Source: Winogradskyella sp. J14-2
GTDB lineage: Bacteria; Bacteroidota; Bacteroidia; Flavobacteriales; Flavobacteriaceae
Length of the DNA stretch: 64,000 nucleotides
NCBI RefSeq assembly: GCF_001971725.1
Contig: NZ_CP019388.1
Location: forward strand, 3,118,501 to 3,182,500
Direction of reading: 5' to 3'
Part shown: in pieces, positions 27,427 through 38,665 of the stretch
Layout: every line of letters starts with the position of its first letter
Position numbering within the stretch: the stretch's first letter is position 1
Position numbers and translations under genes: made by a program
Notes under the pieces: model-generated
Databases searched by the model: none
What the model was told of the DNA's origin: nothing
Seen by the model: only the letters and a program-made list of their open reading frames with translations

Positions 27427-27464
27427 ACCTTTCATTTTTTAAGATTACATTACTTTTACGCCGA

Positions 27465-27702
27465 AATCTGGTTTTATTCAATTTTTTTGAATGAATTAAA
27501 AGGGAATTTGGTGAAAATCCAAAACTGTTCCCGCAACTGTAAGTTTATGCCGAACTGTTGTTTCGGCACCTCAAAATAGAGGTTATTATTTACTTCAATA
27601 CCACTGAGAGATTGCCACAGTTGACTGAAAAAAAGTCAACTTCGCAATGACATTCTTGGGAAGGTGAAATAATAAAGATAAGTCAGGAGACCTGCCAATT
27701 TC
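27465..27702 (+). ncRNA. Cobalamin (AdoCbl-type) riboswitch
   Basis: Conserved blocks appear in order: AGGGAAT then GGTGAAAATCC and CCCGCAACTGTAA (about 27501-27542), CCACTG at 27601-27606, GGGAAGGTG at 27658-27666 and the B12 box GATAAGTCAGGAGACCTGCC ending at 27696. TTATTATTT at 27583-27591 pairs with AAATAATAA at 27667-27675, enclosing the CCACTG/GGGAAGG arm. The arm carries a 44-base segment that matches the genome's interspersed repeat. The ATG of the TonB receptor is 118 bases after the B12 box, giving room for an expression platform. High cobalamin should lower receptor expression. Confidence 0.94.
27609..27652 (+). repeat. Interspersed palindromic repeat unit inside the riboswitch
   Basis: The segment begins AGATTGCCAC and ends CGCAATGACA, the same ends as one half-unit of the repeat at 36438-36466 and the inverse of TGTCATTGC...GTGGCAATCT at 38572-38598. 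Its centre is a hairpin, AGTTGACT (27619-27626 approximately) with AGTCAACT (about 27634-27641). Confidence 0.7.
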
Positions 27703-27814
27703 AACAAAGAAGTCAAACTTTCGGGATAAAAGTTTACTCGGTAATTGAGATCTAGGTCTTTTTATATCCTTACTCAGTATCGCTGTATGTTCTCTCGAGC
27801 AATTAATGTATTAA

Positions 27815-29746
27815 ATGAACAAAACAAAATTGTTTTGTAGCATACTTGGTTTAGGTATGCTCACAATTGGATCTGCACAAATTAAACAGGATTCAGTTAA
27901 AGTAGAAAAACTAGATGAAGTTGTATTATCAGATTCTCGCTTTGCGCTAAAACGAGAAAATTCTGGTAAGGTTATTACAAAAATCACCTCTAAAACATTA
28001 GAGAAATTACAAGGGCAATCGGTAGCCGAAATCATTGGAAGAACCGCTGGAGTAGAAATTAATGGTGTACGCAGTAATGCAGGGCAAAATCTCAGTTATT
28101 TGGTACGAGGAGGTAGAAATCGTCAAGTTTTAATTATGATTGATGGAGTACAAGTTACCGATCCGTCGCAAATTGCAAACGATTACGATCTACGCTTTCT
28201 CAATGCAGATCAAGTAGAGTCTATCGAAATTTTAAAAGGTGCCTCGAGCACGCTTTATGGTACTGGTGCTGCAACAGCAGTAATTAACATTAAGCTAAAA
28301 GAAGCTTCTAAAAAAGCATTTAGCCTTAATTTAAGAAGTACGCTTGGTACTAATCAATCTGCAGATGAAGATGCCTATGCCTTAGAAGACTTTAGAAATA
28401 GTGTTACTGTAAATGGAAGTTTAGGAAAGTTTAATTATTTGGCAAGTTTTGGTCATCAATTTACCGATGGACTTTCTGCCATTGCCAACGGAAATGAGTC
28501 AGATGCTTTTAATAGCAATAACGGTAATTTAAAACTTGGTTACAGGTTTAGTGATAGCTTTAGATTAAATACCTATGCGAGCTATGATAATTATAAAGCA
28601 GATTTTGATGACAGTTTTGGAATGATGGATGCTGAGAACGTATCAATATCTAAACAATACAGAATAGGCGTATCACCAGAATTTAAATACAATAATGGAA
28701 GCATTACTGTTAACGCAGCTTATAATGATGTTGAACGTGATATTGAATCGAGTTTTCCATCAATGTTCAATGCTCAAAGTGTTATTGTCGATGCCTTTAA
28801 CCGTTATAATTTTAGCGATAAATTTTACACTGTTTTAGGTCTTAATTATCAAGACAATCAAATGGAAAGTTTTTCAATTCCATTTGGTGAAACTGAGTTT
28901 AGCCAGGCAATTGACCCAGAAACTGCACAATTTACAATTACAGATCCGTATGCCAATGTGGTTTATGTTTCGGATTTTGGATTAAACGTCAATGCTGGTT
29001 TAAGGCTAAATAACCATAGCGAATACGGGAGTCATTTGGTATATAGTTTAAATCCATCATATAAGTTCGATGTTGATTTTGGTTACATAAAGGGTTTGGC
29101 GAGTTATAGTACCGCTTTTATTACACCATCTCTGTTTCAGCTATTTGAGCCAAGCTTTGGAAATGCAGACCTAGAACCAGAAGAAAACCAAACTATTGAA
29201 GTGGGAGCGGAAGTATCTGTAAAAGGCAAGGCAACATTTAGCTTGGTTTACTTTAACAGAAACGAAGAAAACTTTATTGATTTTGTAGATACAGGAGATT
29301 TTGTTTTTCAGTACCGAAATATTGAAAAATCATTTACGGCAAGTGGTGTTGAGTTTGTTGCACAGGTAAAACTGTCCAAGGATATAGACATTAACTTAAA
29401 TGCAACATATACGACTTTAGATGAGGATTTAAGCCTAAGAATACCTGAGATTAAAATTAATACAAGGTTAGACTACAGCTTGTCAGAACAAATACAAACG
29501 AGTTTATCTTATCAGTATAACGATCAACGTGAAGACGTTTTTTTTAATAATACAACGTTTGAAAACGAAGTTGTTACCTTACAATCTTACGGTTTGTTAG
29601 ATTTTAATGTAAACTATATAATCTTACAAGATAAACTGTCGCTCTTTGCAAATGTTACAAATATCTTTAATGAAGACTATCAAGAATTATTTGGTTTTAG
29701 TACTAGAGGTAGAGGAGTTAACCTTGGCTTTAATTTAAAACTATAG
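27815..29746 (+). CDS. btuB: TonB-dependent outer-membrane receptor, probable cobalamin (BtuB-like)
   Basis: A 643-residue TonB-dependent receptor. The signal peptide covers about 1-22 (ending GSAQ). A plug domain of about 40-155 (VITKITSKTLEKLQGQSVAEII, LVRGGRNRQVLIMIDGVQV, VESIEILKGASSTLYGTGA) precedes a 22-strand barrel ending GVNLGFNLKL. Length matches short BtuB-type receptors without a carboxypeptidase-like domain. Control by the cobalamin riboswitch upstream and the divergent importer define a B12 uptake locus. A strong terminator follows. Confidence 0.93.
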   Translation: MNKTKLFCSILGLGMLTIGSAQIKQDSVKVEKLDEVVLSDSRFALKRENSGKVITKITSKTLEKLQGQSVAEIIGRTAGVEINGVRSNAGQNLSYLVRGGRNRQVLIMIDGVQVTDPSQIANDYDLRFLNADQVESIEILKGASSTLYGTGAATAVINIKLKEASKKAFSLNLRSTLGTNQSADEDAYALEDFRNSVTVNGSLGKFNYLASFGHQFTDGLSAIANGNESDAFNSNNGNLKLGYRFSDSFRLNTYASYDNYKADFDDSFGMMDAENVSISKQYRIGVSPEFKYNNGSITVNAAYNDVERDIESSFPSMFNAQSVIVDAFNRYNFSDKFYTVLGLNYQDNQMESFSIPFGETEFSQAIDPETAQFTITDPYANVVYVSDFGLNVNAGLRLNNHSEYGSHLVYSLNPSYKFDVDFGYIKGLASYSTAFITPSLFQLFEPSFGNADLEPEENQTIEVGAEVSVKGKATFSLVYFNRNEENFIDFVDTGDFVFQYRNIEKSFTASGVEFVAQVKLSKDIDINLNATYTTLDEDLSLRIPEIKINTRLDYSLSEQIQTSLSYQYNDQREDVFFNNTTFENEVVTLQSYGLLDFNVNYIILQDKLSLFANVTNIFNEDYQELFGFSTRGRGVNLGFNLKL

Positions 29747-36380: not shown

Positions 36381-36466
36381 TGTCATTGTGAGGACGAAGG
36401 ACGTGACAATCTCTTTATTTTTAATTATTACTTCAACAGATTGCCACGCTTATGCTCGCAATGACA
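36381..36466. repeat. Interspersed palindromic repeat, two-unit form
   Basis: Outer arms TGTCATTG (36381) and CAATGACA (36459-36466), inner arms GTGACAATCT and AGATTGCCAC (about 36403-36412 and 36438-36447), separated by an AT-rich centre. It lies in the gap between the haem-binding protein and glycosyltransferase genes. The same element recurs at 38571-38665 and, as a half unit, in the B12 riboswitch. Confidence 0.75.
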
Positions 36467-38570: not shown

Positions 38571-38665
38571 CTGTCATTGCAAGTGTGGCGTGGCAATCTT
38601 TTACATTGAAATTCAATTATTTTAAAATTGCCACGTCATTCGTTCTACATTCCTTACAATGACAG
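38571..38665. repeat. Interspersed palindromic repeat, two-unit form
   Basis: Outer arms CTGTCATTG (38571-38579) and CAATGACAG (38657-38665); inner TGGCAATCT (38591-38599) faces ATTGCCACG (about 38627-38635). It fills the gap between the divergent sirtuin and trmH genes, so both promoters must lie in or beside it. Confidence 0.75.

Follow-up and report, generated by a model that had tools for sequence, protein, structure and literature searches.

The tip of a peripheral arm in the cobalamin (B12) riboswitch of the marine bacterium Winogradskyella sp. J14-2 was found to consist of a unit of a dispersed, REP-like palindromic repeat. On sequence comparison it is rather likely, taking these points jointly, that the unit arrived through an exchange of the whole peripheral domain with a repeat-bearing lineage, and that a small GIY-YIG nuclease is the probable agent of the repeats' spread. 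All positions without a contig name refer to the window, the whole analyzed stretch of 64,000 nucleotides. G000 denotes the genome of Winogradskyella sp. J14-2 itself, and the other G numbers denote genomes of its relatives.

The Cobalamin Riboswitch Upstream of btuB

The aptamer (27451–27713, + strand) matched the complete RF00174 model (positions 1–189) with 82.6 bits, compared to a gathering cut-off of 31.5 bits. It was the sole Rfam match in the window at the gathering threshold, and only one cobalamin riboswitch was detected in the whole 3.35 Mb genome (E ≤ 0.001). The gene that follows (27815–29746, + strand) was assigned as btuB, the TonB-dependent vitamin B12 receptor, its best model being TIGR01779 with an E value of 2e-61, below that model's curated cut-off.

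The elements that define the family were present, namely the B12 box and complementary bases for the L5–L13 contact. Loop L5 (CCCG, 27530–27533, + strand) is intact in sequence and would act as the kissing-loop partner of a hairpin with a CGGG loop at 27715–27735 (+ strand; CGGG at 27722), which was kept in all ten aligned leaders. By analogy with known B12 riboswitches, this hairpin is the candidate for L13. The B12 box AGTCAGGAGACCTGCC (27681–27696, + strand) is intact both in the RF00174 match and in the sequence, and the closing stem TTATTATTT (27583)/AAATAATAA (27667) could likewise be read, as the preliminary description had stated for both elements. The arm-bearing riboswitch may therefore be expected, judging from these preserved parts, to remain responsive to B12. 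It resembles a standard RF00174 member in its complete model match, core, B12 box, loop–loop bases and position upstream of btuB, but differs in that the tip of its peripheral arm is a repeat unit and its peripheral domain a recombinant block.

In four other B12 leaders of the genus (L044, L055, L056, and L058), long extra sequence was observed in the short L4 loop GGTGaaaatCC, a place which we take to be constrained in this riboswitch.

The Repeat Unit in the Peripheral Arm

The arm CCACTG...GGGAAGG (27601–27664, + strand) folds with −18.9 kcal/mol. Naming of the peripheral domain follows PMC11260477, in the part of that article available, and the arm probably corresponds to an extension of P6. 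As described previously, a 44-base block runs from AGATTGCCAC at 27609 to CGCAATGACA at 27652, flanked by CCACTG (27601) and GGGAAGGTG (27658). In the fold, ATTGC pairs with GCAAT, followed by an internal loop and then by the inner stem AGTTGACT/AGTCAACT, which forms the inner hairpin of the unit. The block (27609–27652, + strand) showed 0 mismatches in 18 positions to the repeat ends, and none of 300 shuffles was as good.

The ends GATTGCCAC..GCAATGACA occurred three times in the window, compared to 0.00 expected from 100 dinucleotide shuffles, at 27610–27652 (+), 36439–36466 (+), and 38572–38598 (−). This pattern scan bore out the observation that the same ends delimit intergenic half-units at about 36439–36466 and, inverted, at 38572–38598. 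In the whole genome, the pattern GATTGCCAC N0-30 CGCAATGAC was found 14 times, the riboswitch copy included, and the reversed control 0 times. Both frequencies are far above chance and, together with the complete agreement of the 18 core positions, they uphold the earlier proposal to regard the block as one unit of a palindromic intergenic repeat that has been amplified. Taken singly and allowing at most one mismatch, the end GATTGCCAC was unremarkable (12 in the window, 8.3 expected), and the end CGCAATGACA was found 11 times with 2.6 expected.

Both intergenic sites in the window are pairs of half-units on opposite strands. At the first, a half-unit at 36382–36411 (−, 2/18 mismatches) is partnered by an exact one at about 36439–36466 (+); at the second, a half-unit at about 38572–38598 (−, 1 mismatch) is partnered by one at 38626–38663 (+, 3 mismatches). 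The orthologous intergenic site of G036 (L192) also carries the repeat pair of 36382–36465, so this copy predates the split of the two genomes and has not been mobile recently.

Among 40 repeat loci that were read, eight (L162, L168, L171, L173, L177, L178, L183, and L185) contained units with an inner stem whose end lies 14–18 nt 5′ of an ORF start, and a translational effect of such units is possible. Several of these eight lie, by eye, in kynurenine-pathway gene clusters. Units within long ORFs, read through in frame, were seen in L199 (G000:C1:691274-691305) and in L193 (G036:C42). At G000:C1:144601-144935, a 151-bp segment is present three times head-to-tail, with an identical repeat unit in each.

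In an Rfam scan of the 40 loci at the gathering threshold, the repeat copies overlapped no structured RNA except in the cobalamin riboswitch loci that were included. Three other matches (S15 leader, L19 leader, and Flavo-1) stand apart from the repeats. The possibility that copies of the inner-stem repeat form parts of other structured RNAs thus found no support in these loci.

Distribution of the Arm in Related Genomes

Two patterns spanning arm lengths of 5–58 nt were applied to 68 genomes of the genus. A short arm (5–27 nt) was found in 54 of them and a long arm (28–58 nt) in nine, while five (G456, G001, G474, G477, and G478) matched neither pattern. Across the family, 20 of 397 genomes carried a long arm, that of Winogradskyella sp. 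J14-2 included.

A total of 28 different long arms (nine from the genus and 19 more from the family) were scored against the repeat ends in both orientations, 14 of them in a second run as well. Within the genus, the numbers of mismatches out of 18 were 0 for G000, 1 for G009, 2 for G475, and 4 for both G033 and G480, and the junction CTG|AGAGATTG was common to all five. Two further genus arms are weaker cases: that of G032 had 4/18 mismatches, with 0/300 and 3/300 shuffles as good in two runs, and that of G482 had 5/18, with 11/300 and 4/300. In other genera, 0, 1, 1, and 4 mismatches were counted for G423, G142, G147, and G181, respectively. The same CTG|AGAGATTG junction was present in G423, G142, and G181, which belong to three other genera; the junctions of the G147, G032, and G482 arms differ.

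The remaining 17 of the 28 long arms, with 6–10 mismatches in 18 positions, were not accepted as repeats. They comprise two genus arms (G461 and G028, 8 mismatches each, no match to the repeat) and 15 from outside the genus (6–10 mismatches); the nearest were those of G406 (6 mismatches, 20/300 shuffles as good) and G194 (6 mismatches, 13/300).

All 11 recognized arm units share one orientation, and the reverse orientation fitted none of the 28 long arms (the best value, 5 mismatches, was obtained for G480, whose forward fit is 4). Their inner stems are of unrelated types (AGTTGAC, ATCAC, and AGCAAAAT), and similar inner stems were seen in intergenic copies, either from the same genome or from another of the genus. 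When the named genomes were scanned with the repeat pattern, 45 stretches were obtained, of which only L075, L086, and L092 are a riboswitch with a unit; L075 is the G009 contig, and L092 agrees with G423 over the region printed.

No exact intergenic copies were found in the arm-bearing genomes G480 and G181, which indicates that the arm can outlive the repeat. The preliminary description had asked whether relatives carry the block as an ancestral helix while lacking the intergenic repeat. Relatives do possess the arm as a common helix, and for G480 and G181 it stands without an exact intergenic copy. Since the arm is shared in this way, the arm of G000 was either inherited or imported rather than freshly inserted. 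Of the proposal that a repeat had inserted into the arm, the placement of a unit at the tip of the peripheral arm, with the core intact, thus stood, whereas a fresh landing in this lineage did not. Taken together, the arms are compatible with a single old insertion and with several, up to about four.

Mosaic Structure of the Peripheral Domain

In blastn comparisons with L019, L015, and L020, the leader broke at 27543 and 27680, delimiting a block at 27544–27679 (+ strand) that extends from just 3′ of CCCGCAACTGTAAG to just 5′ of the B12 box. Compared to G036, identity was 94.9% over the 1594 nt ending at 27543, the sequence was unalignable up to 27680, and identity was 80.8% thereafter; at two sites elsewhere, the identity between G036 and G000 is about 89%. 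The alignments with G026 (93.3% over 254 nt) and G023 (90.2% over 255 nt) break at the same two bases as that with G036.

The block is thus non-homologous to the corresponding segments of G036, G026, and G023, but about 87% identical to those of G480 and G475. Alignments of the peripheral domain gave 116/134 identities with G480, 117/135 with G475, and 110/132 with G009. Informative-site counts in six triplets yielded Fisher p values from 2e-15 to 7e-10 (4e-10 for G036/G480); in the G036/G480 triplet, the 3′ flank was mixed (13 to 8). These alignments are most simply read as the outcome of recombination within the conserved core, by which a repeat-bearing domain took the place of a short-arm one. 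We infer the direction of the swap from the short arm of the three relatives G036, G026, and G023.

A further repeat was observed in the same riboswitch of two relatives. In the leaders of G475 (L136) and G013 (L046), TGTCAC..TGAGCGCAGTCGAAGTG.. occupies the loop of another peripheral hairpin; the corresponding loop is short in G000, G480, G009, and G033. The sequence TGAGCGNAGTCGAAGTG is present in 22 copies in G000, 20 in G036, 3 in G475, and 1 in G013, the sole copy in G013 being that of the riboswitch. It thus appears that dispersed repeats have entered peripheral loops of this riboswitch on more than one occasion.

Relationship to Known Palindromic Repeats

Read from its tag, the half-unit has the form TGTC/CGTC-ATTGC..GCAAT-CT. 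Tags were read in 13 of the 14 exact half-units of the genome, 11 being TGTC and 2 CGTC; the riboswitch copy carries TGTC. According to the available part of PMC3733652, such tags, stems beginning with AT, and paired units characterize the superfamily of CGTC-tagged REPs, whose hosts include Bacteroidetes. The flavobacterial repeat shares with it the terminal TGTC/CGTC tag, the stem starting with AT, the paired inverted units, and the mostly intergenic location with some units in ORFs; the tag is unpaired, and the AT start holds for the riboswitch unit and the exact copies. The CGTC REPs in that part of PMC3733652, however, have an uninterrupted stem of 8–9 bp, a loop of 4–5 nt, and a tail that is mostly CCA. 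In contrast, the flavobacterial repeat has a 5-bp ATTGC stem, an internal loop, a variable inner stem, and the tail CT; unlike the CGTC REPs treated there, it has a unit in a riboswitch and an associated nuclease gene. Because it falls outside the published limits for stem, loop, and tail, it is called REP-like here and placed outside CGTC-1 to CGTC-4.

The repeat ends were also found in Anaerolineales, Azoarcus, Oscillospiraceae, and others, in 18 of 45 loci that had been preselected by a related pattern. A placement of palindromes within functional genes is also known from the Rickettsia palindromic elements, but these are inserted in protein genes, whereas the Winogradskyella unit lies in the arm of a regulatory RNA. 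PMC3733652 identifies RPE-4 and RPE-6 with CGTC REPs.

A literature search for cobalamin riboswitches with repeat insertions or palindromes returned none (the palindrome query was judged by title), and a search with the letters TCATTGCGAG gave, by title, no paper on repeats among the matches listed.

GIY-YIG Nuclease Genes Beside the Repeats in Flavobacteriaceae

A gene for a GIY-YIG nuclease (PF01541, 62.4 bits) was located at G000:C1:140083-140361 (L059 2584-2913), between the type I restriction genes hsdS and hsdR and within a cluster of 10 half-units. The intergenic copy that is, by eye, closest to the riboswitch unit (with TGTTGACTGCAAACGTCAATA inside) directly precedes it. No repeat halves were found in the loci of the other seven GIY-YIG matches of the genome.

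By protein similarity, 58 GIY-YIG loci were collected from the best-ranked listed matches (30 + 28). With about 1.5 kb on each side, repeat halves were present in 34 of the 36 loci scoring at least 100 bits and in 2 of the 22 paralog loci below 100 bits, the cut of 100 bits having been picked after seeing the data. In 24 of the 36, halves flanked the gene on both sides at no more than 300 nt. Repeat halves were lacking in L284 and in L238, which is a broken copy. In 46 riboswitch loci of about 2–3 kb, there was a single unit, that of the G009 riboswitch arm, and none elsewhere.

Among the matches listed, the nuclease of G000 is 82% identical to a protein of another genus, compared to at most 77% within its own genus, which suggests horizontal spread of the repeat-associated group. 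The Tyr, Gly, Arg, His, and Glu residues of the GIY-YIG domain have catalytic roles, and the consensus of both groups keeps these residues at the expected positions. A PDB sequence search with the nuclease returned nothing at E 0.001.

In RAYT systems, a Y1 HUH transposase is associated with GTAG-tagged REPs. The present arrangement is like a REPtron or RAYT (TnpA-REP, Y1 HUH) in that one small nuclease gene is bordered by palindromes dispersed in the genome, here its cognate repeats. It differs in that the bordered gene belongs to PF01541 and encodes a GIY-YIG endonuclease, not a Y1 tyrosine transposase, and in that the tag is CGTC, not GTAG. No paper joining GIY-YIG proteins to REPs was found in the literature searched, which was judged partly by title and did not extend to subscription journals and preprints.

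GIY-YIG Genes and REPs in Other Phyla

A tblastn search against plasmids gave 33 records, of which 17 were examined, and two IMG/VR contigs were added (L294 was counted, L293 left out). A strict REP unit was defined by the tag CGTC, TGTC, or CCTC, an AT-stem of at least 8 bp, and a loop of 3–8. Such units were present within 500 nt in 10 of the 18 distant GIY-YIG loci, all ten proteobacterial: Sinorhizobium meliloti, Sinorhizobium K101, Rhizobium (2), Shinella (3), Neorhizobium, Photobacterium, and Azospirillum lipoferum. By comparison, none of 195 windows of equal width contained one; these were taken from one 50-kb stretch in each of five replicons (S. meliloti, Neorhizobium, Photobacterium, Novosphingobium, and Azospirillum). 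The REP palindromes differ by clade, as exemplified by CGTCATCCTCGGGCTTGACCCGAGGATCCA and CCTCATTCCTGTGCTTGTCACAGGAATCCA.

In L303 (A. lipoferum 4B plasmid AZO_p3), sufB and sufC enclose the GIY-YIG gene, which has paired CGTC REPs on either side of it. A. lipoferum is named as CGTC-positive in the part of PMC3733652 available.

The strict unit was absent from the other 8 of the 18 loci (Spirosoma, Planktothrix, IMG/VR L294, Novosphingobium, and Sphingobium (4)). In Spirosoma, Planktothrix, and L294, tag-like or palindromic sequence was seen nearby, by eye only. Contig L293, outside the count, carries the flavobacterial form of the repeat on both sides. In the 45 loci of the pattern scan, no GIY-YIG genes were detected by tblastn at E 0.01.

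Discussion

The following course of events is proposed. A short arm would have taken up a repeat unit in its loop, either in a flavobacterial ancestor or donor or in a few independent events. Owing to its self-complementarity, the transcribed unit would fold so as to lengthen the arm, leaving the B12-binding core and the L5–L13 contact untouched, which may be why it was tolerated. Recombination between conserved segments of the core would later have given G000 the peripheral domain of a repeat-bearing lineage in place of a short-arm domain of about 136 nt. The small GIY-YIG nuclease encoded amid the repeats is probably what spreads them; the protein might nick or cut REP hairpins or cruciforms, and copies would spread via repair.

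That the repeat instead jumped into the riboswitch in the genome's own recent lineage is very improbable. The short arm of G036, despite 94.9% identity over 1594 nt of upstream DNA, would agree with such an event, but the whole peripheral domain rather than the block alone differs from G036. Moreover, the domain matches those of G480, G475, and G009, with the same unit and the same junction, and four other species of the genus share that junction. A single ancient insertion in a flavobacterial ancestor, followed by loss or shortening in most species and by drift of the inner stem, is possible, if on the unlikely side. The common orientation of all 11 recognized arms fits it better than several insertions, and it would account for the CTG|AGAGATTG junction in five genus genomes and in three other genera (G423, G142, and G181). 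It is harder to reconcile with three unrelated inner stems (AGTTGAC, ATCAC, and AGCAAAAT) resembling those of intergenic copies, and with the different junctions of G147, G032, and G482.

Two further alternatives concern the nature of the repeat and the means of its spread. Rather than mobile DNA, the hairpin could be a shared functional RNA motif, such as a site for a protein or an RNase. Conserved ends with varying inner stems, and the eight of 40 loci in which a unit ends 14–18 nt short of an ORF start, are in keeping with this, but repeats also occur between convergent ORFs (L166), inside ORFs (L193 and L199), around the nuclease gene, and, as the same type, in distant phyla, and a functional motif is thus quite improbable. 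It is rather improbable, too, that a REP-associated tyrosine (Y1) transposase of the Bacteroidetes subclass moves the repeats and the GIY-YIG gene is a passenger. Genes of that TnpA-REP subclass are flanked by atypical hairpins that are repeated elsewhere in the genome, according to the part of PMC6006769 available. Against this, GIY-YIG genes accompany REPs in more than one phylum, and the REP sequences concerned are not the same. Furthermore, according to PMC3733652, no tyrosine transposase gene was flanked by CGTC repeats in the species treated there, Gramella forsetii included, and in 2013 the CGTC REPs were described as lacking a dedicated transposase.

Under the preferred reading of an imported, repeat-bearing domain and repeats spread by a nuclease, this GIY-YIG subfamily becomes a candidate for the missing REP-spreading enzyme. 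A wider proposal, for which we consider the chances even, is that small GIY-YIG nucleases are the missing enzyme of CGTC-type REPs across phyla, forming a GIY-YIG REPtron with a cognate palindrome in each clade. As part of the same proposal, the repeats would insert into the loops of hairpins in regulatory RNAs, sites that tolerate a self-folding insert, and would have extended and, via recombination, reshuffled the peripheral domain of flavobacterial B12 riboswitches.

The riboswitch described here provides a case of dispersed palindromes building part of a regulatory RNA, with the short-arm relatives showing the repeat-free state. How CGTC REPs spread without a transposase, a question open since 2013, is now directly testable with a protein of about 95 residues.
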